Assembly (NCBI GenBank): GCA_009692205.1
Contig: SHZR01000002.1
Coordinates: forward strand, 62,001-126,000
Origin: Gemmatimonadota bacterium
GTDB lineage: Bacteria; Gemmatimonadota; Gemmatimonadetes; Longimicrobiales; Gaopeijiaceae
DNA: 64,000 nt
Direction: 5' to 3'
Shown: piece after piece, positions 3,192 through 46,934 of the stretch
How the letters are laid out: every line of letters begins with the position of its first letter
How positions within the stretch are numbered: position 1 is the first letter of the stretch
Notes under the pieces: generated by a model
The model's database searches: none
Told to the model about the DNA's origin: nothing
What the model saw: only the letters and a program-made list of their open reading frames with translations
Made by a program: the position numbers and the translations under genes

Positions 3192-3918
3192 GGACGGCCG
3201 CATTCTGCTCGCCACGGCCTGCTTCGGCGCCGCGATCGCGTGGGGCGACCGCATTCCGGCGGCCATGGTCGACATGGAGATGTTCCGTATCGAGGATGTC
3301 GAGGTGCGGGGCCTCCGCTATCTGGAGGAGTCGGAGGTCGTCGACATGCTCGACCTCACGCCCGAGACGTCCGTGTGGAGTGACAAGTCCCCGTGGCAAG
3401 ATCGCGTGGCCGCTCACGCGCTCGTGAAGTCCGTGCGCGTGAGCCGACGTCTTCCTGATGGCCTTCTGTTGGTGGTGAGCGAGCGCATCCCGATCGCGCT
3501 CGGGCCGACCCCGACGCTCGAGCCCATGGACGCGGAGGGACGCCGGCTGCCGATCGATCCCGCCGAGTTTCGTCTGGACCTGCCGGTGATTCACACATCG
3601 CGCCGTCCGCCGCGCGGATCCCGACATTTCCCGGCCGAGGTGCGACGCCTGGCCGCGGAGGTGGAGCACCTCATGGCCGCCGACACGGCGTTCCTCCAGT
3701 TGGTGTCGAGCGTGGCATGGAACGGGCGGGGCGCGTTGACCGTGCGTTGGACGGAGCCAGCGGTGGAGTTCCTGCTGCCGTCGCAGGCGTCGCCCGCGCG
3801 GCTCCGCGAGGGACTCGGGGCGCTCGCGGATGCGGCGTCGAGGGAACGGGAGGGGATGCCGGATGTCATCGACCTGCGATTCGCGGACCAAGTCGTGGTC
3901 CGCAGGGCCCGGAACTGA
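3184..3918 (+). CDS. ftsQ: FtsQ/DivIB-type cell division protein
   Basis: A 244-residue bitopic division protein. A short cytoplasmic N terminus is followed by one weakly hydrophobic segment (about residues 5-25). A POTRA domain comes next (about 37-105), opening with FRIEDVEVRGLRYLEESEV and followed by the typical VKSVRVSRRLPDGLLLVVSER. The rest is the FtsQ beta domain. FtsQ links FtsB/FtsL to the septal synthase in the periplasm. Identification rests on the POTRA pattern and the position between murC and ftsA, because FtsQ sequences diverge strongly. The start overlaps murC by 8 nt. Confidence 0.88.
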   Translation: MRRDGRILLATACFGAAIAWGDRIPAAMVDMEMFRIEDVEVRGLRYLEESEVVDMLDLTPETSVWSDKSPWQDRVAAHALVKSVRVSRRLPDGLLLVVSERIPIALGPTPTLEPMDAEGRRLPIDPAEFRLDLPVIHTSRRPPRGSRHFPAEVRRLAAEVEHLMAADTAFLQLVSSVAWNGRGALTVRWTEPAVEFLLPSQASPARLREGLGALADAASREREGMPDVIDLRFADQVVVRRARN

Positions 3919-3920
3919 CG

Positions 3921-5150
3921 ATGCGCTCGAACCTGATCGCCGGATTGGACATCGGGACCGCGAACACCTGCGTGGTGATCGGCGAGATCTCGCAGGACCC
4001 GCGCCGCCCCGGCCTCACGATCCTGGGTGTCGGGCAGGCACGCACGGGCGGCTTGCGCGGTGACCTCGTGACGAACATCGACGGGATCACGGAATCCGTG
4101 CGCGCGTCGATGAAGGAGGCCGAGCTCATGGCCGGCGTAACGGTCGACCGCGTCTACGCCGGGATCGGAGGAGATCACATCCGCGCCTCCAGCTCGATGG
4201 GCGTCGTCGCGATCTCCGAGGACGAGGTCGCGCAGGACGACATCGACCGCGTGCACATCGTCGCGCGCGCCGTCGCTCTCCCCCCGGATCGCGAGATGGT
4301 GCACGCGATCCCGCAGGAGTACCGCGTCGACCACCAGCGCGGCATCAAGGATCCGCTCGGCATGGCGGGCGTCCGCCTCGAGGCCGAAGTCTTCCTCGTG
4401 ACGTGCCAGATCACGGCGTCGGCGAACATCTGCAAGGCGGTCAACCGCGCCGGCTATCGCGTCGAGCAGCTCGTGCTCGAGCCCCTCGCGGGCGCGCGCG
4501 CGGTCCTCACCGAGGACGAGAAAGAAGTCGGCGTCGCGATGATCGAGATCGGCGCGGCGACTACCGACGTCGCGGCCTATTACGAGGGGAAGGTCCAGCA
4601 CGTCTCGATCCTCCCGTTCGGCGGGGCCACGCTCACGGCGGATCTGGTGCGCGGGCTCTCGGTGCCGTTCGCGGAGGCACACAAGACCAAGGAGCACTTC
4701 GGAGTCGCGCTCGCGCAGCTCGTCGATCCGCGGGAGACGGTTCCGCTTCCCGGACCGGTGCCGGGTCAGACCCGCCGCGTGGCGAGGGAGCTGATCGCAC
4801 ACGTGATCGAGCAGCGGCTCGACGAGATCTTCGGGATCGTGCAGGGGGAGCTGCAGGGTCAGGGGCTCCTCGACCACCTCGGCGCCGGGATCGTTCTCAC
4901 GGGCGGCACCGCCGCGACACCGGGAATCGTCGATCTGGCGCATCAGGTCTTCAATTTGCCGGTGCGTCTCGGCGTGCCATCCGAGGGACTCGGCGGCCTC
5001 GCCGACTCGGTCCAGCGCCCGCGCTTCGCGGTCGCCTCGGGCCTCGCGCTGTGGGGGGCCGATCGTTTCAGCGAGACCGGGCGGGGATCCTCCACGGTCA
5101 CGTCCGGAGTGTTCACCAAGCTGGGCACGTGGTTGAAGGAATTCTTTTAG
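3921..5150 (+). CDS. ftsA: FtsA, actin-like cell division protein
   Basis: A 409-residue member of the actin/Hsp70 ATPase fold that tethers FtsZ to the membrane. [15 protein letters not shown] at the N terminus is the phosphate-1 motif, [11 protein letters not shown] (about residue 203) is phosphate-2, and [10 protein letters not shown] (about 326) is the adenosine motif. The protein ends in a short amphipathic LGTWLKEFF, the membrane-targeting helix expected for FtsA. The same frame is open upstream into ftsQ, but the ATG 2 nt after the ftsQ stop is chosen because the conserved N terminus begins there. Confidence 0.96.
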
Positions 5151-5178
5151 GTCACTCACACTCCGGCAGGGAGGAGTC

Positions 5179-6411
5179 ATGATGATGTTCGAATTCGAAG
5201 AATCGCCGGTCCGGAACGCGCGGATGAAGGTGGTGGGTGTCGGCGGGGCCGGCGGCAACGCCGTGAATCGCATGATCGACGAGCGTCTGGAGGGGGTCGA
5301 GTTCATATCCATGAACACCGACGGCCAGGTCCTCAAGACGTCCAAGGCGCCGGTGAACATCCAGATCGGCAAGAAGCTCACGCGTGGGCTCGGTGCAGGC
5401 GCGCGTCCCGAGGTGGGACGCCAGGCCCTCGCCGAGAGCGAGGACGAGGTGCGGCGCGCGCTCGAGGGCGCCGATCTCGTGTTCGTCACGGCCGGCATGG
5501 GCGGCGGCACGGGAACCGGCGCGGCGCCGCTCGTGGCGGAGATCGCGCGAGACATGGGCGCGCTCACGATCGGCATCGTGACGAGGCCGTTCTCGTTCGA
5601 GGGTAAGAAGCGCGAGCGGCAGGCGGCGCAGGGCATGGCCGAGCTGCGGCGCTGCGTGGACACGATGATCGTGGTTCCGAACGATCGGCTTCTCGCCGTG
5701 GTCCCCAAGGGGACCTCGTTCCGGGATGCGCTCAAGAAGGCCGACGAGGTGCTGCTGCACGCGACGCAGGGGATCTCCGACCTGATCAGCGTGACGGGTG
5801 ACGTCAACGTGGACTTCGCGGACGTGCGTACCGTCATGGCCTCGCGTGGGCCGGCGCTCATGGGGTCGGGCTTCGCCGAGGGCGACAACCGGGCCGAGAT
5901 CGCGGCGAAGGCGGCAATCTCCTCACCCCTCCTCGACGACGTGTCGATCGCGGGATCCCGGGGCGTGCTGATCAACATCACCGGGGGGCCGGACCTCGGC
6001 ATTGACGAGGTCACGATCGTCTCTTCGATTATCCAAGCAGTGGCCGGGGACGACGCCGAGATCATCTTCGGCGCGGTGCACGACCCCAGCATGCAAGGCA
6101 AGATCAGGGTCACCGTCATCGCCACCGGCTTCGACTCGGCCAACGACGAGAAGGTCATCCCGGGTGACTTCCGCCGCACGCGGACTCCGGCCCAAGCCAC
6201 TACCTCTGCTACGTTCCCCCGTGCGCAAGAGCCGGTCGTGGCCGATATTCAGATGGTGCGACAGATGGAGGCACGCATGGAGGTCCGCGCGGTCGGGGGT
6301 TCGCGGTCCGTGCAGGCTGTGTCGCCTTCGCGGTTCCCGGATCGTCCGCTCACCCGGGAGCCGATGGCAGGTCTGGATATACCGACGTTCATCCGGCGTC
6401 AGATGGACTGA
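5179..6411 (+). CDS. ftsZ: FtsZ, tubulin-like division GTPase
   Basis: A 410-residue GTPase that forms the Z ring. [16 protein letters not shown] is near residue 17, the GTP-binding tubulin signature [10 protein letters not shown] near 110, and the T7-loop region NVDFADVRT near 212. A variable linker leads to the conserved C-terminal peptide DIPTFIRRQ, which docks on FtsA. A good ribosome-binding site (GGGAGGAG, about 5169-5176) precedes three consecutive ATG codons; the first is used here. Length and domain order are normal. Confidence 0.98.
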
Positions 6412-6432
6412 CGCGGGCAGGGGTCAGGCACG

Positions 6433-7755
6433 ATGTCGAGTCGAATGATCGAGCCGATGAGGATCGCGGCGGCCGCGGTGGCGGCCGTCGCGTGCACGGC
6501 GTGCGTCTTCGAGGCCCCCGACGCGGGCAGGATCGATCGGCTGTATGTACCGCCGGCGGAGACCGTGCAGATCTTCTCGCTCGGCCGGGGTGAGACGTTC
6601 GGCGGGATCCTGGACGGCACCATCTCCGCGAACGAGCAGGCGTTGCTGCTCATGGCGTTCCGCGAGCACGCCTCCCCGATGCGCATGCGCGAGGGCACGG
6701 AGATCACGCTGCGGTTCCTCAAGGACGACGAAGAGATCCGGGGCATCGACGTGGCGCTGATGCCCGACGAGACCGTGCGCCTACATCGCGAGCCGCTAGG
6801 GTGGGAGTCCGAGTTGATCGAGACGCCGATCTACGTCGACACGCTGTTCGCGAGCGGCGAGATCGAGACGGTGCTGTGGAACGCGGTGGTGATGAACCCC
6901 GTGCTCTCCGGCCTGCCGTTCGCGGACCGCAACGAGCTCATCGACGACCTCGACCAGGTCTTCCAGTGGCAGGTCGACTTTTCGCGGCAGATCCGCGTGG
7001 GCGACACCTATCGGTTCGTGTTCGAGCGCGAGGTTCGCCCCGACGGCTCGATGCGGGCGGGCCGGCTGCTGGCCGCTGAGCTCGTCACCAGCGGCACTCC
7101 GTTCCATGCGATCTGGTTCGACCCGAACGGGGACGGGCGCGGGTCGTATTTCGACCTGGAGGGAGAGTCCGTGCGGCGGGCGTTCCTGCTCAAGCCGCTC
7201 TCGTATCGACGCATCTCATCCCTGTTCACGAACTCGCGCTACCACCCCATCCTCAACACCTGGCGCTCGCACCGCGGTGTCGACTACGCGGCGGATGCGG
7301 GCACGGAGATCATGGCGACCTCCGACGGGGTCGTGACCGAGCGACGCTTCGATGGGAGCTACGGCAACACCATTCTCATCCGCCACCCGAACGGGTTCCA
7401 GACCCGTTACGCGCACATGCGCGCGTTCCGGAACGGCATCGTGGTCGGGAGTCGGGTGCACCAGAGCGACATCATTGGATACGTGGGCATGACCGGGCTC
7501 GCCACGGGCCCGCACCTCCACTATGAGATGCTCCGGGGCGGACGTCACATGGATCCGCTGTCCGTGGACCTGCCGGCGGGCGACCCGGTGCCCTCGGACG
7601 ATCGCATGCGCTGGCTGGACGAAGCGGAGGTGCGTGTGGCGCTGCTCGATGGGATCCCGGGCGCGGGTCCGGTGCGCACCCTCGTGGTGGACGCCGAGAT
7701 CCAAGACGGACAGACGGTGGCCGCGGGCGCGGCTCCCAGCGGGGGGCTGCAGTAG
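6433..7755 (+). CDS. M23-family murein endopeptidase (MepM-like), exported
   Basis: A 440-residue envelope protein with an N-terminal signal sequence (AAAAVAAVACTAC). A lipoprotein Cys is possible, but the lipobox is weak. A long middle region of the Csd3/MepM type is followed by a LytM domain (about residues 275-375). The Zn ligands are visible as HRGVD near 279 and HLH in GPHLHYE near 359, so the site looks catalytically competent. It probably cuts peptide cross-links in murein. Only 21 nt separate it from ftsZ, which suggests it supplies hydrolase activity during division. ATGs at 6445 and 6457 are alternative starts; 6457 would give the tidiest signal peptide. Confidence 0.88.
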   Translation: MSSRMIEPMRIAAAAVAAVACTACVFEAPDAGRIDRLYVPPAETVQIFSLGRGETFGGILDGTISANEQALLLMAFREHASPMRMREGTEITLRFLKDDEEIRGIDVALMPDETVRLHREPLGWESELIETPIYVDTLFASGEIETVLWNAVVMNPVLSGLPFADRNELIDDLDQVFQWQVDFSRQIRVGDTYRFVFEREVRPDGSMRAGRLLAAELVTSGTPFHAIWFDPNGDGRGSYFDLEGESVRRAFLLKPLSYRRISSLFTNSRYHPILNTWRSHRGVDYAADAGTEIMATSDGVVTERRFDGSYGNTILIRHPNGFQTRYAHMRAFRNGIVVGSRVHQSDIIGYVGMTGLATGPHLHYEMLRGGRHMDPLSVDLPAGDPVPSDDRMRWLDEAEVRVALLDGIPGAGPVRTLVVDAEIQDGQTVAAGAAPSGGLQ

Positions 7756-38751: not shown

Positions 38752-38791
38752 CGGCGTGGCGTACACCGGGCCCACGGGCCATTTTGGGCCG

Positions 38792-40018
38792 ATGCTCGAC
38801 GCCCTCACCCGCACCCTGACGCTGCACCGCGCGCTGCTCATCGGCGCCATGGGCTGGAGCGCACTCGCCGTCACGGCGGCGGCGCAGGCCCCCGACGACT
38901 CCTTCGCCGCGACCTACGCGCGGCTCCGGAGCGGACCGGTCCACTCGCGGGATGTCCCCACGGGTCGGCTGGAGCATACGCGCACCAACGAGAATGGCCT
39001 GGTGCATCGGTACGTCCTGATCGTCCCCGACGACTACGATCCGGCGCGCCCGTATCCGGTGGCGTTCTACCTCCACGGGGGGGTATCGCGGGCGGATCCG
39101 GGCCCGGGGGGCACATGGTGGCGCAACTACGACGACGTGATCGGCCACGACCGCATCGCCGTCGTTCCCGCATCGTGGAACGAGTCGCTTTGGTGGCAGG
39201 CGAGCCAGGTCGAGAACCTGCGGGGCATCCTGTCGGACCTGAAGCGCACCTACAACGTGGACGAGAACCGCGTGTACGCGTTCGGGTCGTCCGACGGAGG
39301 CACCGGCGTGTACTTCCTGGGCTTCAAGGATACGACGCCGTGGGCGGCCCTCCTTCCGTTCATCGGGGATCCGCGGGTGCTCCTGAACGCGCAGATCGGG
39401 GTCGACGGAGACGTGCATCTGGCCAACCTCATCAACAAGCCGCTCTTCATCGTGAACGGCGAGACCGATCGCCTGTACCCGGTCCGCCAGATCCTACCGT
39501 TCCTGGGGGCTCTCGAAAACGTCGGCGCGGACTTCGAGTTCACCGCCAAGCCCGGTGGGCACGACACCAGGTGGTGGCCCGAAGAAGCGGAGAACATCGA
39601 GCGCTTCATCGCCGACCACCCGCGGGATCCTCACCCGGATCGGGTCATGTGGGCCACCGAGCGCACGGAACGCTATAACAGAGCGCACTGGGTGGTGATC
39701 GACGAGGTCGGCCCGATCGCGGGAGACAGCGCGCGCGCGGGCCTGGCGTCGATCACCTCCGGCGGCCTGGGCGGCATCGTCGACGCCAGGCGGGAGGGCA
39801 ACACCGTCACGCTCCGCGCGCACGCCGTGCGTCGCTTCACGCTGCTGCTCTCGCCCGAGGAGTTCGACCTGGCGAGTCCCGTGCGCGTGATCGCCAATGG
39901 CGAGACGGTATTCGATGGGATGGTACGGCCCGACGTCGCGGTACTGACCAAGTGGGCTAGGCGGGACGAAGACCGCACCATGCTGTACGCCGCCGAGGTC
40001 AGTGTCGAGCTGCGCTGA
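38792..40018 (+). CDS. Secreted alpha/beta-hydrolase, PHB-depolymerase/esterase-like
   Basis: A 408-residue protein with a signal peptide (cleavage near TAAAQA, residue 32). The hydrolase fold shows YVLIVPDDYDP and the oxyanion region FYLHGGVS near 92, the nucleophile elbow G-S-S167-D-G near 165-169, an Asp candidate in NGETDRLYP near 225, and His in GGHDTRWW near 250. A C-terminal beta-rich region of about 120 residues is of unknown role. Likely a secreted or periplasmic esterase; substrate unknown. The frame runs open back into trpD, but the ATG at 38792 gives the signal peptide. Co-transcription with trpD (40-nt gap) is possible. Confidence 0.78.
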   Translation: MLDALTRTLTLHRALLIGAMGWSALAVTAAAQAPDDSFAATYARLRSGPVHSRDVPTGRLEHTRTNENGLVHRYVLIVPDDYDPARPYPVAFYLHGGVSRADPGPGGTWWRNYDDVIGHDRIAVVPASWNESLWWQASQVENLRGILSDLKRTYNVDENRVYAFGSSDGGTGVYFLGFKDTTPWAALLPFIGDPRVLLNAQIGVDGDVHLANLINKPLFIVNGETDRLYPVRQILPFLGALENVGADFEFTAKPGGHDTRWWPEEAENIERFIADHPRDPHPDRVMWATERTERYNRAHWVVIDEVGPIAGDSARAGLASITSGGLGGIVDARREGNTVTLRAHAVRRFTLLLSPEEFDLASPVRVIANGETVFDGMVRPDVAVLTKWARRDEDRTMLYAAEVSVELR

Positions 40019-40359: not shown

Positions 40360-40968
40360 TCAGTATTTCCGGATAACCCCCACCACCACCCCCTGCACGC
40401 GCACGTCTCTGGCATCCGCGAAGATCGGCTTCATGGTCGGGTTCGCGGGCTGGAGCCGCACGCGCCCACCGGACTCGCGGTAGAGCTTCTTCACCGTGGC
40501 GGAATCGCCGCCGACCAGCGCGACGACCATCTGGCCGTCCTCTGCGGTCTCCTGGGCCTGCACGACGATGTAGTCGCCGTCCCGGATCTGCTCCTCGATC
40601 ATCGAGTTTCCCTCGACGCGGAGCACGTAGTTGTCCTTCTTCCTGCGGATCATGTCGGGCGGCACGGTCACGGTCTCGTTGTCCGTGATCGCCTCGATGG
40701 GCATGCCCGCCGCGACGGCTCCGAGGAGCGGCAGCTCGATGGACGGAGGGCCCGCATCTGGGCTCGTCATCTCGAGGGAGCGGCTTTCGTTGTAGGACTT
40801 CCTTATGTAGCCCTTGCGCTCCAGATTGCTCAGGTGTTCGTGGACCGTCGCGAGGGATGTGTACCCAAACGACTCCGCGATCTCCTCGAAGCTCGGGGCG
40901 TACCCGTGGCTGCCGATGAAGCCGCCGACGTAGTCGAGGATTTCCTTCTGGCGCTTGGTGAGGGGCAT
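40360..40968 (-). CDS. lexA: LexA, SOS-response repressor
   Basis: A 202-residue repressor and self-cleaving protease. An N-terminal winged helix (about 1-65; MPLTKRQKEILDYVGGFIGSHGYAPS is classical) is followed by the S24 domain. The cleavage site is Ala87-Gly88 in GAVAAGMP, the catalytic pair is Ser122 (EGNSM) and Lys160 (TVKKLY). RecA-stimulated cleavage should derepress SOS genes. A strong GGAGGGAGGG ribosome-binding site precedes the ATG. It is divergent from trpC with only 71 nt between starts. Confidence 0.96.
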   Translation of the reverse strand: MPLTKRQKEILDYVGGFIGSHGYAPSFEEIAESFGYTSLATVHEHLSNLERKGYIRKSYNESRSLEMTSPDAGPPSIELPLLGAVAAGMPIEAITDNETVTVPPDMIRRKKDNYVLRVEGNSMIEEQIRDGDYIVVQAQETAEDGQMVVALVGGDSATVKKLYRESGGRVRLQPANPTMKPIFADARDVRVQGVVVGVIRKY

Positions 40969-41006: not shown

Positions 41007-41050
41007 CCCGAACAGGAACCGAAAAAGGTTACCCGAACGTTGCCCGAAAC
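41007..41050. promoter_or_regulatory. CCCGAAC repeat cluster in the lexA-trpC divergent region
   Basis: CCCGAAC occurs at 41007-41013 and 41032-41038, with CCCGAAAC at 41043-41050; GAAC occurs at 41010, 41016 and 41035. Just beside, GTTAGGCCAAGTGGCCCGAAC (its central palindrome is 40997-41008) forms an imperfect dyad. These could be LexA operators, since GAAC/GTTC half-sites are used by LexA in other phyla. The spacing does not match a box I know. Confidence 0.35.
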
Positions 41051-41879
41051 GCAAGGATCCAAGGCGCTTCCAGGCATCCTGGCCGAGATCGTTCGGACCA
41101 AGGCCGCCGAGCTGGCGGAGCTGCGCCCGCGGGCCAAGGAGTTGGACAGGGCGGCCGCAGTGGCGCCAACCCCGCGTGATTTAGGAGCGGCCCTCTCGAC
41201 CCCGGGACACGTCGCGCTGATCGCCGAGTGCAAGCGGCGCTCGCCCGGCGCCGGCCCCATTCGGCCGGGGCTGGACCCGGCCGCGCTCACGCGCGGATAC
41301 GCTCGCGCGGGCGCAGCCGCGCTCAGCGTGCTCACGGACCGCGATTACTTCGGCGGGAGCCTCGCGGACCTCGAGGCCGCGAAGACAGCGACATCGCTGC
41401 CCGTGCTCCGCAAAGACTTCACGCTCGGCCCTCTGCACGTGATCGAAGCGCGGGCGGCCGGGGCCGACGCGGTGCTGCTGATCGTGCGCATCCTCTCGGA
41501 CGCCGCGCTCGCGAGCCTGCACGCCGAGGCGGCCGATCTGGGCATGGCCGTGCTGGTCGAGGTGCACGACCGCGCCGAGCTCGCTCGCGCGCTCGACATC
41601 GAGGCGAGGATCGTAGGCATCAACAACCGAGACCTCGCGACGTTCCGCACCGACCTGGGGACCACCCTCGCGCTGCTGGAGGACGTGCCGGACGACGTGC
41701 TCGTCGTGTCGGAGAGCGGGATCCGCGGTCCGGAGGACGCCGCGCGGCTCGGTGACGCCGGCGTCGACGCGATCCTGGTGGGGGAGACGCTCCTCCGCGC
41801 GCCTGATCCGGAGGAGGCCGCTCGCTCGCTCGCGACGGTGGCGAGGCGCGAGCGGGTGCCCGGCCGGATGCCTAGGTGA
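41040..41879 (+). CDS. trpC: TrpC, indole-3-glycerol-phosphate synthase
   Basis: A 279-residue TIM-barrel enzyme that converts CdRP to indole-3-glycerol phosphate. The signatures LIAECKRRSPGAGPI near 60, LTDRDYFGGSLADL near 98, LPVLRKDFTL near 120, INNRDL near 195 and SESGI near 222 are all present, including catalytic Lys and Glu residues. The TTG at 41040 is effectively forced: an in-frame TAG lies at 40995 and no other start precedes the core. The region before it is shared with lexA. Confidence 0.95.
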   Translation: MPETQGSKALPGILAEIVRTKAAELAELRPRAKELDRAAAVAPTPRDLGAALSTPGHVALIAECKRRSPGAGPIRPGLDPAALTRGYARAGAAALSVLTDRDYFGGSLADLEAAKTATSLPVLRKDFTLGPLHVIEARAAGADAVLLIVRILSDAALASLHAEAADLGMAVLVEVHDRAELARALDIEARIVGINNRDLATFRTDLGTTLALLEDVPDDVLVVSESGIRGPEDAARLGDAGVDAILVGETLLRAPDPEEAARSLATVARRERVPGRMPR

Positions 41880-41883
41880 CCCC

Positions 41884-42549
41884 GTGCGCGTGAAGATCTG
41901 CGGCCTCACCCGTGCTGAGGACGCTCGCGCGGCCGATGCTGCCGGCGCGGACTACCTCGGCGTCGTGCTCTCAGCCGGTTTCGGCCGCAGCGTCGTGCCG
42001 AGCGCGGCCCGCGCGCTCGTCGAAGGGACGAGCGCGCTCAGGGTCGCGGTACTGGTCGACGAGACCGCGGACGGGGCCGCGGCGGCCGCTCGCGCCCTCG
42101 GCGCCGACGTGATCCAGCTGCACGGAACCGAGTCTCCGGACGTGCTGGACGAGCTGCGTGCGCGCGGTGGCTGGCATCTGTGGAAGGCCGTGCGCGCGCA
42201 GTCGATCGAGGACGTCGAGCGCGCGGTGGAGGCCTACGGCCGGGTGGCCGACGGGATTCTGGTGGAAGGATGGAAAGAAGGCTCGCCCGGGGGCGGTGGC
42301 GCGCGCCTGGCGCTGGATCCGGCTCGGGTGCGCGCGCTCGTGCCCCACTCCGTGGACCTCGTCCTCGCGGGCGGCCTCGGACCGGACAGCGTGGCCGACG
42401 CGGTCCGGAGCTTCCGTCCCGACGTCGTCGATGTATCCTCGGGGGTCGAGCGCGCTCTCGGCGTGAAGGACCACGGCCGGGTGCAGGCCTTCGTCCGAGC
42501 CGCGCGCGCGGCCGTTCCCGTTCCCGCCACGAAGGACGATTCCGCATGA
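41884..42549 (+). CDS. trpF: TrpF, phosphoribosylanthranilate isomerase
   Basis: A 221-residue TIM-barrel isomerase (PRA to CdRP). Catalytic Cys is in [14 protein letters not shown] near 6, [14 protein letters not shown] is near 79, and the catalytic Asp and phosphate-binding region [14 protein letters not shown] near 161 precedes DVSSGVE. The frame is open upstream inside trpC; the GTG 4 nt after the trpC stop is chosen because the family N terminus begins there. The stop overlaps trpB (ATGA). Confidence 0.93.
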
Positions 42550-43742
42550 CGCCCGCCGACGCCACCGCCACTCAGCGCTTCGGCCCGTACGGGGGGCGCT
42601 ACGTTCCCGAGACGCTCATCCATGCTCTCGACGAGCTGACCGAGGCGTACGCGGCTGCGGGTCTCGACGCGGAGTTCCGGTCGTCGCTCGCGGCGCTGCT
42701 GAAAGACTTCGCCGGGCGGCCCACGCCGCTCTACCACGCGCGCCGGCTCGGCCAGGCCGCGGGCCACGCGTCGGTCTATCTCAAGCGCGAGGACCTGAAC
42801 CACACCGGCGCGCACAAGATCAACAACACGCTCGGGCAGGCCTTGCTCGCGGTGCGCATGGGGAAGCGGCGAATCATCGCCGAGACCGGGGCAGGCCAAC
42901 ACGGCGTGGCGACCGCGACGGCGTGCGCGCTCTTCGACCTCGACTGCGTCGTCTACATGGGCGAGGAGGACGTGCAGCGCCAGGCGCTCAACGTCTACCG
43001 CATGGAGCTGCTCGGCGCCGAGGTGCGGCCGGTCGGGGCGGGCACCCGCACGCTCAAGGACGCGACCAACGAGGCGATCCGCGACTGGGTGACCAACGTG
43101 GGGACCACCCACTACATCATCGGGTCGGTCGTCGGTCCGGATCCGTTCCCGCGGATGGTGCGAGACTTCCAGTCCGTGATCGGACACGAGGCCCGAGAGC
43201 AGATTCTCGAGGCGGAGGGGCGCCTTCCCGCCGCGGTGGTCGCGTGCGTGGGAGGGGGCTCGAACGCGATCGGGATCTTCCATGCGTTCGTGCCCGACGC
43301 CGGGGTCGAGTTGGTGGGGGTGGAGGCGGCCGGGGAGGGTCTCGACTCGGGGCATCACTCCGCTTCGCTCGCCGCGGGATCGCCGGGTGTCCTCCACGGC
43401 TCCCTCAGCTATCTTCTCCAGGACTCGGACGGCCAGGTCGCGCCCGCGCATTCGGTGTCGGCGGGTCTGGACTATCCGGGGGTCGGTCCGGAGCACTCCT
43501 TCCTCAAGGACACTCAGCGCGCTCGGTACACGTCCGCCACCGATGACGAGGCCCTCGACGCGTTTCACAGGCTCTCGGAGCTCGAGGGGATCATCGCCGC
43601 TCTCGAGTCCGCGCATGCGGTCGCGCACGTCCTGGCGCATGGACGCACGTATGCCGGCCCCGTGGTGGTCTGTCTCTCCGGACGGGGGGACAAGGACGTG
43701 GCGCACGTGGCCCGAATCGAGGGCCGCGGCTCTCTGCTCTGA
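42546..43742 (+). CDS. trpB: TrpB, tryptophan synthase beta chain
   Basis: A 398-residue PLP enzyme that condenses indole and serine. The start [16 protein letters not shown] lysine in [10 protein letters not shown] (about 93), [14 protein letters not shown] and the phosphate loop [10 protein letters not shown] near 235 are all characteristic of TrpB1, the form that partners TrpA. Unusually, trpA does not follow directly: a 352-residue unknown gene lies between them. Confidence 0.97.
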
Positions 43743-43751
43743 GGAGCTCAC

Positions 43752-44810
43752 GTGACCGAGCCGCAGGTGCCGGTGGGCGTCGCGAGTGACGCACAGGAGC
43801 GGGACCTCGACCCCGCCGCGCTCGCGGCGGTTCAGGCCCTCATCGTCACGCTCGCCAAGACGTTCCGCGCCTACCAGCTCTACGACGAGAACAACCCCGT
43901 ACGTCGCCGTTTCGGCGATCAGCTCAAGACTGAGTTCCTTGCGCTCTGGCAGCTGATGGACCGCTTGGTCCTCGGCGTCGACGAGGACCACTTGTACCTC
44001 GGCGGCCAGAAGGTCTACAAGGCGGAGAGCCGCAACGACTCGCTCCCGTTCCTCTTCTTCAAGGACGGCATTCGGGAGGTCAGGTTCCTTCCCGGACTCG
44101 AAACCGAGGAGCTCGACCGATTCCTCGGAGTGCTCCAGAAGGCGCGCAAGCGCGTTCCGGAGGGCGACAACCTCCTGACCGTGTTCTGGGAGGCGGCCCT
44201 GCGCTTCTTCGAGTACGAGTACGTCGATCTCCTCGCCGAGGGCGTGTCGCTTCCAAAGGCGGGCGCGGGCAACACCCAAGCCGAGATGCAGAAGGCGCTC
44301 GAGGCGGAGGACGCGGAGCAGGCGAACGCAGAACAGCGGGCACAGTCCGGCGAGCCGGAGGCGCAACCCGCGCCCAAGACGGTCAAGCAAGACGACTTCA
44401 ACCCCACGCTCCACGCCCTCGACAAGCGCGAAATGGAGCATCTGCGGGCGGAGTTCCAGAAGGAGCTCAACCGCGACACGCGCGCCGACGTGCTCAGCGC
44501 CCTCTTCGACCGGCTCGCGGAGCCCCAGAACCGAAAGCGCCAGTCTGAGATCCTGGGCATCCTCTCGACGCTGCTGCCGAACTTCCTCAGCCGTGGCGCG
44601 ATCGTGGCGCAGGTGAACAAGGACCCCGCGCTCCTCCATCGACCCATCGTGCGCGTGATCTCCGATCCCGTGGGCCTGTCGCTGTCGGAGCCCAAGACGC
44701 TCGACCTCGCGGAATCCGACCCCGCCACCGGCGCGCCGCGCAATCAGATCATCAAGACCACGGATCCTCAGAAGTACGGGATCCGGGTGAGCGACTACCT
44801 GATCCCGTGA
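43752..44810 (+). CDS. Uncharacterised protein X inside the trp operon
   Basis: A 352-residue soluble protein that I do not recognise. Residues 1-165 look like a compact mostly helical domain with LAKTFRAYQLYDENNPV near 33 and GVDEDHLYLGGQKVY near 75. Residues 170-215 are a Glu/Ala/Gln-rich linker. Residues 220-305 are helical with a conserved-looking ILSTLLPNFLSRG. The last 45 residues are low-complexity and end in YLIP. No signal peptide, membrane helix or catalytic motif is seen. A GAGGAG ribosome-binding site precedes the GTG start, and its stop overlaps the trpA GTG (GTGA), so it is co-expressed with the tryptophan synthase subunits. Confidence 0.8.
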   Translation: MTEPQVPVGVASDAQERDLDPAALAAVQALIVTLAKTFRAYQLYDENNPVRRRFGDQLKTEFLALWQLMDRLVLGVDEDHLYLGGQKVYKAESRNDSLPFLFFKDGIREVRFLPGLETEELDRFLGVLQKARKRVPEGDNLLTVFWEAALRFFEYEYVDLLAEGVSLPKAGAGNTQAEMQKALEAEDAEQANAEQRAQSGEPEAQPAPKTVKQDDFNPTLHALDKREMEHLRAEFQKELNRDTRADVLSALFDRLAEPQNRKRQSEILGILSTLLPNFLSRGAIVAQVNKDPALLHRPIVRVISDPVGLSLSEPKTLDLAESDPATGAPRNQIIKTTDPQKYGIRVSDYLIP

Positions 44811-45583
44811 TCTCCAAGGCGTTCACCGCGCGGTTAGCCCGCGGCCAGGCCGCACTCGTTCCCTATGTGACCGCCGGGTATCCCGAGCGGGGGTCCACGC
44901 TCGGGGTCATGGAGGCGCTCGCGGACGCGGGCGCCGACGTGATCGAGCTCGGCGTCCCGTTTTCGGATCCGCTCGCGGACGGCCCGACCATCCAGCACGC
45001 GTCGTTCGTCTCGATCGGGAAGGGGATGACGGTGCATGGCGTGCTCGACGACTTGGCCTCTTTCCGGGCCCGGCGCGATACGCCCGTCGTGCTCTTCACG
45101 TACCTCAACCCGCTGCTGCGCTACGGGCTGACCGCGTTCCTGCGCGACGCCGTGGCCGCTGGCGCGCACGGCCTCCTCGTGACCGACCTGCCGACGGGCT
45201 CCGATCCCCAGATCGAGGCCGAGATCACCGCGTCGCCGCTCGACCTCATCCGTCTGGTGGCGCCCACGACGCCCGTCGAGCGCGTTCCCGAGGTGGCGAA
45301 GGGCGGCTCCGGATTCCTCTACTACATCTCGCGCATGGGTGTCACGGGGACGCGCACCGAGCTGAGGACCGAGCTCGCCGCCGAGGTCGGACGGATTCGC
45401 GCGGCCGTCGAGCTTCCCGTGGCGGTGGGCTTCGGCATCTCGAGTCCCGAGCAGGCCGCGGCGGTCGCCGCGGTGGCGGACGGGGTGGTCGTGGGGAGCG
45501 CCATCATCCAGGCGCTCGATCGGGGCGGCGCTGCGGAGGCGGGGCGGTTCCTGGCGTCGCTCAGGAAGCAGATGGACGGGTAG
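44807..45583 (+). CDS. trpA: TrpA, tryptophan synthase alpha chain
   Basis: A 258-residue TIM-barrel lyase that releases indole from indole-3-glycerol phosphate to TrpB. The catalytic Glu and Asp lie in VIELGVPFSDPLADGP near 45-60, YYISRMGVTGTR is near 168, and the phosphate site VGFGISSPEQA near 207. The GTG start overlaps the stop of protein X. It is the last trp gene of the cluster; tandem hairpins follow. Confidence 0.96.
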   Translation: MISKAFTARLARGQAALVPYVTAGYPERGSTLGVMEALADAGADVIELGVPFSDPLADGPTIQHASFVSIGKGMTVHGVLDDLASFRARRDTPVVLFTYLNPLLRYGLTAFLRDAVAAGAHGLLVTDLPTGSDPQIEAEITASPLDLIRLVAPTTPVERVPEVAKGGSGFLYYISRMGVTGTRTELRTELAAEVGRIRAAVELPVAVGFGISSPEQAAAVAAVADGVVVGSAIIQALDRGGAAEAGRFLASLRKQMDG

Positions 45584-45640: not shown

Positions 45641-45664
45641 AGCATTCGTGGGCTTTCATTGGTC

Positions 45665-45715
45665 TACGAAAGGATCTCAAGTTATTCTTTCGTATCGTGA
45701 CCCGCGCGAAAGGAT
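45665..45715. promoter_or_regulatory. 20-nt-spaced CGAAAG/CTTTCG array at the Fic gene start
   Basis: CGAAAG begins at 45667, its inverse CTTTCG at 45687, and CGAAAG again at 45707, exactly 20 nt apart. The first pair is part of a perfect 8-bp inverted repeat, TACGAAAG (45665-45672)/CTTTCGTA (45687-45694). The outer two share CGAAAGGAT as a 9-bp direct repeat 40 nt apart. The stretch is notably AT-richer than its surroundings and contains TATTCT (45683-45688) as a possible -10. It looks like an operator, perhaps autoregulatory. Confidence 0.55.
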
Positions 45716-46934
45716 GCCTCCGCTGCCTGAGCTCGTCGACTGTCTCTGGGAGGGGGGAGGCTACGGCGCTCGCCGGGACCGGCGGCCGTTCCGTTTCCAG
45801 GCGTTCGTGCCCGATCCCATCGCCGAATGGGACAGGCCGTTGGCGGGCCGCGCTGCCGAGGCGGTGGCCCAGGCAACCGCCGCGCTCAGAGAGCTCCAAG
45901 CCGCGGGAACTGGACACGACCTCGAGGCGCTCGCAACTCCGCTGCTACGCGCGGAGGCCCTCGGTTCCTCATTCATTGAAGGTCTTCGGGCCTCGAACAA
46001 GCGCCTTGCCCTCGCTGCTTACGAGCCGCTCGCGGCAGACGCCACTGCGCGAGCAGTTCTCGGCAACGTCCGGGCGATGGAAAGGGCGATCGCGATCGGC
46101 GCCGAGCGCCGCCGTCTCCGTCTCGGGGACTTGCTCGAGGTTCACCGGATACTCCTAGAAGCCACGACCGAAGAGCGCTTCGCCGGAGTGGTCCGCACCA
46201 AACAGAACTGGATCGGCGGCCGCGGCTCAAGTCCCCGCGACGCGGCGTTCATTCCCCCCCCGGCGGATCGCGTGGCCGCGCTCTTCGACGACCTGATCAC
46301 GTTCGTGAACCTCGACGACTTGCCTGCGATCGCGCAGGCCGCGATCGCGCACGCCCAATTCGAGACCATCCATCCCTTCGGTGACGGCAACGGTCGAGCC
46401 GGACGATGCCTCATTCACATCATCCTTCGGCGGCGCGGCATCGCGCCGCGTCTCGTGCCCCCGGTCAGCGTGGTGCTCGCTACCAGCGCCCGCCGCTACG
46501 TCGCCGGCCTCATCGATTTCCGAGAAGGCCGCGCCGACGATTGGGTTGGCGCCTTCGCCGACGCGGTCACAAGGGCGGCTCGGAGTACCGAAGGGTTGCG
46601 GTCTCGCATCGATGCCCTCCTCGGCGAGTTCGTCGATCGCGCGGGGTCGCCTCGCGCGGATTCGGTCGCTCGCAAGATCATCCTCGGACTATCCGCACAA
46701 CCTATCGTGAGCGCCGAGAGCGCGGCGATGCTCTACCGAGTCACGCCAACGGCTGCGCGCGCGGCTCTCAACCGCCTCGAGGCGGCGGGGGTATTCGTCC
46801 CGACCCGCGTCGGGCGCCGCCGTGATCGTGAGTGGATCAGCGACGAACTCTTTCAGCTGCTCGATCGTTTCGAGCACGACCTCGACGGGGGCGAGCCCCT
46901 CAGGACGCGGCGTCAGGTCGAGGATCGCCCCTGA
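45714..46934 (+). CDS. Fic-domain protein (predicted AMP transferase), class II
   Basis: A 406-residue Fic protein. The catalytic motif HPFGDGNGRAGR is complete at about 220-231. An N-terminal inhibitory-helix motif SSFIEG (about 85-90) matches (S/T)xxxE(G/N), so activity is probably auto-inhibited (class II). The C-terminal part contains a winged-helix-like segment (SAESAAMLYRVTPTAARAALNRL). Such proteins usually AMPylate a target; the target is unknown. The ATG at 45714 is chosen because the region before it is AT-rich and operator-like; a GTG at 45648 would add 22 residues. Its 3' end overlaps the convergent RqcH-like gene by 22 nt. Codon use looks less extreme than that of its neighbours, so acquisition by transfer is possible. 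Confidence 0.88.
   Translation: MPPLPELVDCLWEGGGYGARRDRRPFRFQAFVPDPIAEWDRPLAGRAAEAVAQATAALRELQAAGTGHDLEALATPLLRAEALGSSFIEGLRASNKRLALAAYEPLAADATARAVLGNVRAMERAIAIGAERRRLRLGDLLEVHRILLEATTEERFAGVVRTKQNWIGGRGSSPRDAAFIPPPADRVAALFDDLITFVNLDDLPAIAQAAIAHAQFETIHPFGDGNGRAGRCLIHIILRRRGIAPRLVPPVSVVLATSARRYVAGLIDFREGRADDWVGAFADAVTRAARSTEGLRSRIDALLGEFVDRAGSPRADSVARKIILGLSAQPIVSAESAAMLYRVTPTAARAALNRLEAAGVFVPTRVGRRRDREWISDELFQLLDRFEHDLDGGEPLRTRRQVEDRP

Follow-up and report, generated by a model that had tools for sequence, protein, structure and literature searches.

A gene between trpB and trpA in a Gemmatimonadota trp operon derived from an inserted HEAT-repeat and HD-GYP gene pair

What is the gene that lies between trpB and trpA in a trp operon of the Gemmatimonadota, and what is the meaning of its overlap with trpA? 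The gene, here called X, is found in a 64,000-nt stretch of a Gemmatimonadota bacterium genome (assembly GCA_009692205.1, contig SHZR01000002.1, positions 62,001 to 126,000; hereafter the window). An earlier note on this DNA had placed X in the order trpB-X-trpA, with a length of 352 aa, an upstream GAGGAG and a GTGA overlap with trpA; the sequence bears out each of these, and Pfam confirms the identities of trpC, trpF, trpB and trpA around it (Table 1). Upstream, lexA (40360-40968) is divergent from trpC and is a conserved neighbor of the operon, with 78-93% identity across the loci compared. An alpha/beta-hydrolase-like gene with a weak Peptidase_S9 match (38786-40015) lies between trpD and lexA, and no relative was found at the same place in L032, L033, L053, L039 or L041. 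A Fic-domain gene (Fic_N and Fic, 45648-46931) separates trpA from an NFACT gene; no relative was found in L032, L033, L039, L053 or L047, where the NFACT gene follows trpA.

Table 1. Features of the X locus, in window coordinates
Feature	Coordinates	Strand	Basis and remarks
trpC	41040..41879	+	Pfam
trpF	41884..42549	+	Pfam
trpB	42546..43742	+	Pfam; stop codon 43740-43742
GAGGAG, Shine-Dalgarno-like, before X	43741..43746	+	sequence; overlaps trpB stop; duplex energy -7.5 kcal/mol
X	43752..44810	+	in-frame fusion remnant of A and B, 352 aa; GTG start, 9 bases 3' of trpB stop
A-derived part of X, residues 1-283	43752..44600	+	71% identity to A of G283/L031
N-terminal alpha/beta domain of X, common to A and (distantly) B	43809..44231	+	residues ~20-160; structure models, profile comparison
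Deletion junction near residue 283	44598..44603	+	'SRGA' of A joins 'AIVAQVN' of B
Tail of X from B (final ~70 residues of HD-GYP protein)	44598..44810	+	88% identity to B of L032
GTGA stop/start overlap of X and trpA	44807..44810	+	sequence; trpA site weak, -1.9 kcal/mol
trpA	44807..45583	+	Pfam

Derivation of X from two genes

A Pfam/NCBIfam search placed X in no family above the curated cut-off. Weak matches to Pex19 and GrpE, lying over the linker and the helices that follow, fell below the cut-off and were rejected. No significant solved relative was returned by PDB sequence or fold searches, and the N-terminal domain alone had no convincing Pfam match. The earlier note had predicted two helical domains. 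AlphaFold instead models a single confident alpha/beta domain (pLDDT ~90), with helices of low confidence from residue ~176 onwards.

Searches of the class and of a set of named genomes showed that X matches two different proteins. Residues 1 to ~289 match the front of frames of ~590 residues (gene A), and residues 283-352 match a second place ~2 kb downstream of the first (gene B). A is an uncharacterized N-domain followed by a HEAT solenoid (~580 aa), with HEAT_2 (PF13646) matches at 1e-16 to 1e-23; its structure model is a solenoid, for which the PDB has a match in designed HEAT-like repeats (1e-7). B (~472 aa) combines an N-domain with HD/HD_5 (HD-GYP) and also matches the NosR family NF053512 weakly. 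The HD.G and HH..GYP motifs are present in 43/43 B sequences, and B is probably a c-di-GMP phosphodiesterase. The N-domain of A seems to be a distant relative of that of B, although comparing their profiles over 106 columns (E 1.3e-4) gives a probability of only 54%.

The A part of X ends just past the first helices of the solenoid, before the recognized repeats, and X has no HEAT match. From B, residues ~402-472 alone are kept: the catalytic HD-GYP core, with its HD and HH...GYP motifs, is missing, and X has no HD_5/HD match. Relative to the A-B span of G283, a genome of the same genus, X is 2115 bases shorter. No second copy of the deleted parts was found elsewhere in the genome (a 61-contig draft, completeness 97.9%), which holds only generic HEAT and HD-GYP paralogues at 23-34% identity. 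We refer to a frame that joins the front of A to the tail of B between trpB and trpA, in a genome with no intact B elsewhere, as an A/B deletion remnant of the trp operon, and X is one such frame. On these alignments, X is best described as the product of a deletion that joined the start of A to the end of B in frame, and not as a free-standing new gene. The earlier note had listed, as an outcome that would count against its proposal, that X might turn out to be a stray piece of some larger family whose function is unrelated; this is largely what X proves to be.

When the trp proteins and the parts of X were mapped on 27 named loci, the order trpC-trpF-trpB-A-B-trpA emerged, seen here in family f1. 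The survey of the class, taken to be Gemmatimonadetes, covered 295 genomes: 208 have A-like sequences, 195 have B (E <= 1e-40) and 269 have trpA. In 73 of the 76 genomes for which both positions were available, B is the gene immediately upstream of trpA, on one contig and strand, with 2-131 bases between the matches; in the remaining three, B and trpA are split over contigs. As far as the contigs reach, trpB-A-B-trpA is seen at 18 of 20 loci from families f2, f3, f6, f7, f9 and f10, some of them without an adjacent trpF and one (L080) on a contig that starts inside A. Two f9 loci carry A-B without neighboring trp genes (L090, ~3800-6880; L097, ~3360-6450; both after reverse complement) and would permit study of the pair apart from the trp operon. 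Weak B-like matches (~1e-35) also occur in f11, a different family group within the phylum. A survey of relatives for trpB-X-trpA, as the earlier note had proposed, thus finds that the insertion point is conserved across the class but is occupied by the full A-B pair rather than by X.

A gene between trpB and trpA has precedents. Split operons of the form trpF-trpB-X-trpA, with an X unrelated to trp genes, are mentioned for Burkholderia and Flavobacterium in a passage of Kagan et al. (2008, PMC2395257) that cites Xie et al. As described there, they resemble the present locus in that trpB and trpA are separated by a co-directional non-trp gene. The likeness is one of position: the clade is a different one, and the ancestral insert here is a HEAT/HD-GYP pair, of which X is the fused remnant. 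Our literature search, with most subscription journals outside its coverage, found no published description of such a pair in a trp operon.

Repeated deletions and counts of c-di-GMP genes

The deletion in the window is one of ten found in its family. In the window's family, for which 121 genomes were searched, the B tail is kept in 65 and undetectable in 56. Ten of the 65 tail-bearing genomes have a short frame that holds the tail without the B core: G000 (the window), G250, G181, G145, G104, G062, G183, G226, G200 and G206, all of them fragmented assemblies of 30 to 320 contigs. A short frame in an eleventh genome, G281, appears to be a contig end and not a remnant, since its B sits on another contig. 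All ten remnants differ in their junctions. In the window, A is kept to ~283-285 and B resumes at 402; the G250 junction joins A up to ~193 with B from position 323. As neither deletion contains the other, the two are independent. In nine further genomes that we fetched, the A-B pair has been lost.

The state of the pair follows the number of c-di-GMP genes in the genome. GGDEF genes number 6-16 per genome where the pair is intact, 1-11 where there is a remnant and 0-1 where the pair is lost (medians 10, 4.5 and 0), and HD_5 numbers are 3-10, 0-7 and 0, respectively. The P values for these differences are optimistic because the tests treat genomes as independent. The GGDEF trend also holds within genera g1 and g8, each of which includes all three states, and within g13 and g23, for which intact and remnant genomes were compared.

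Reading frame through the remnants and translation of trpA

Most of the deletions preserve an open frame. When the trpB-trpA stretch is translated, the A and B frames agree in 8/10 remnants (binomial P = 0.0034 against a chance of 1/3). Ten deletion events are few, some come from one genus, and two carry less sequence behind the count: the A part of G104 is only 4-5 codons long, and the G206 contig begins inside A. The search itself did not favor in-frame joins, because tblastn reads all frames. G104, G062, G183 and G226 are in frame although only ~4-35 A codons and 44-71 B codons remain. The two out-of-frame remnants are G181, which has a frameshift, and G200, in which a stop overlaps a GTG restart. 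In G200 (L064, ~5550-5908 after reverse complement), the A-derived stop overlaps the restart codon as TAGTG; from this GTG the B frame runs on to trpA, as though a restart had restored coupling.

The ribosome site of trpA is weak at nearly all loci where the pair or a remnant precedes it. Its Shine-Dalgarno energy is between 0.4 and -2.2 kcal/mol in 16 of the 17 intact and remnant loci with a clear start, against a background median of -2.8; the site is at -2.2 or weaker in 8/8 intact and 8/9 remnant loci, and the exception is G200, at -3.2. B's own site is strong (-7.9 to -11.4) in the seven intact loci with a clear B start. L041 (for trpA and B), L039 (for B) and L038 (for A) were left out of this comparison. 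In 8/9 genomes that have lost the pair, a candidate trpA start either has a Shine-Dalgarno energy of -3 or better or lies close to the trpB stop, at -8 to +1 bases from it; this count rests on candidate starts, several per genome, and G014 yielded none. The border between X and trpA has both sequence features of translational coupling, the GTGA overlap and a trpA site weaker than the background median. These observations suggest that trpA depends on ribosomes that translate B or, in remnant genomes, X. The earlier note had offered three options for X: interaction with the synthase, regulation of the pathway, or simple dependence on the operon for expression. The last comes nearest, but the dependence seems to be reversed, with trpA relying on translation through X.

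In E. coli, trpB and trpA are a classical case of coupling through a stop/start overlap (Oppenheim and Yanofsky 1980; Das and Yanofsky 1989; both as cited in PMC12548453). As presented in that source, the likeness lies in a stop/start overlap before trpA and in downstream translation that needs ribosomes ending upstream. The upstream partner in the Gemmatimonadetes would not be trpB but the inserted B or the remnant X, and coupling here is proposed from the sequence.

What X is now

We consider it likely that X is an evolutionary remnant of an A-B pair that erodes as c-di-GMP signaling declines, with its frame kept for the sake of trpA. The ancestral insert is the A-B pair, which is seen at this place across the class. 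The window's lineage lost ~2.1 kb of it, comprising A's HEAT repeats and all of B's HD-GYP core, and the two ends came together in frame. Such deletions may be tolerated while the c-di-GMP network shrinks. Those that survive would mostly keep a single open frame from the start of A to the stop of B, because trpA appears to lack a ribosome site of its own and to be started by ribosomes terminating at the overlapping stop. Avoidance of Rho-dependent polarity would favor the same frames and is indistinguishable from coupling here. The main present role of X would be to bring ribosomes from its own start site to trpA, and its N-domain may still fold and have some activity.

An alternative explanation, which we regard as unlikely, is that the N-domain and the new tail are selected for an activity of their own, such as binding to TrpA/TrpB or to a partner of the former pair, and that the open frame reflects this protein. 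We gauged selection on X by terminal branch ratios and pairwise dN/dS. X has 352 codons without a stop and a confidently predicted N-domain fold, and its dN/dS against the X of G250 is 0.17 for the N-domain and 0.09 for the tail, with 0.16 for trpA. X therefore shows neither the disrupted frame nor the neutral substitution of a pseudogene, although a young deletion would give the same open frame and low dN/dS, which fit both a recent deletion and a constrained protein. Also in favor of this alternative, the distances of X to intact relatives, scaled by trpBA, are inside the range of intact pairs. However, the terminal branch leading to X is raised when set against trpBA: the two ratios, 1.85 and 2.38, are the second highest of 16 and of 14, ~1.5-2 fold above typical tips. 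(A combined "ANM" ratio of 4.07 was discarded, as its partner tip L033 had been pruned.) Furthermore, the sister G250 deleted a different part, and some reduced tails lack residues that are invariant in intact tails (four in G183, three in G014). Together with the very short in-frame remnants, these losses argue that no common peptide is being kept. Nothing in this analysis points to binding of X to tryptophan synthase.

It is likewise unlikely that the A-B pair owes its place in the trp operon to a function, as a link between c-di-GMP breakdown and either expression of tryptophan synthase or the sensing of tryptophan or indole, and that X keeps a sensor-like N-domain that regulates the synthase or its own operon.

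Ordinary decay of a young dying gene, its frame intact by luck and under no selection for read-through, would account for the raised branch ratio and for the frequency of complete loss (no detectable tail in 56/121 genomes of the family). We nonetheless consider it quite unlikely, given that so many remnants are in frame and that the trpA ribosome site is near-absent in intact and remnant genomes and present after loss. That X is an assembly artefact, with intact A and B collapsed by the assembler, is highly improbable: the genome is a draft, but the missing halves are on no contig, the aligned relatives show no evident long stretch of identity at the junction, and ten genomes have different junctions.

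The locus offers a natural deletion series, from the intact pair through ten different remnants to complete loss. The series indicates what evolution keeps when operon genes turn dispensable, which is apparently the frame to the next gene rather than the protein. The locus further brings to light a probable c-di-GMP phosphodiesterase pair that lies within the tryptophan operon across a whole bacterial class, and it calls for caution, in that short operonic ORFs of unknown function need not be new proteins.
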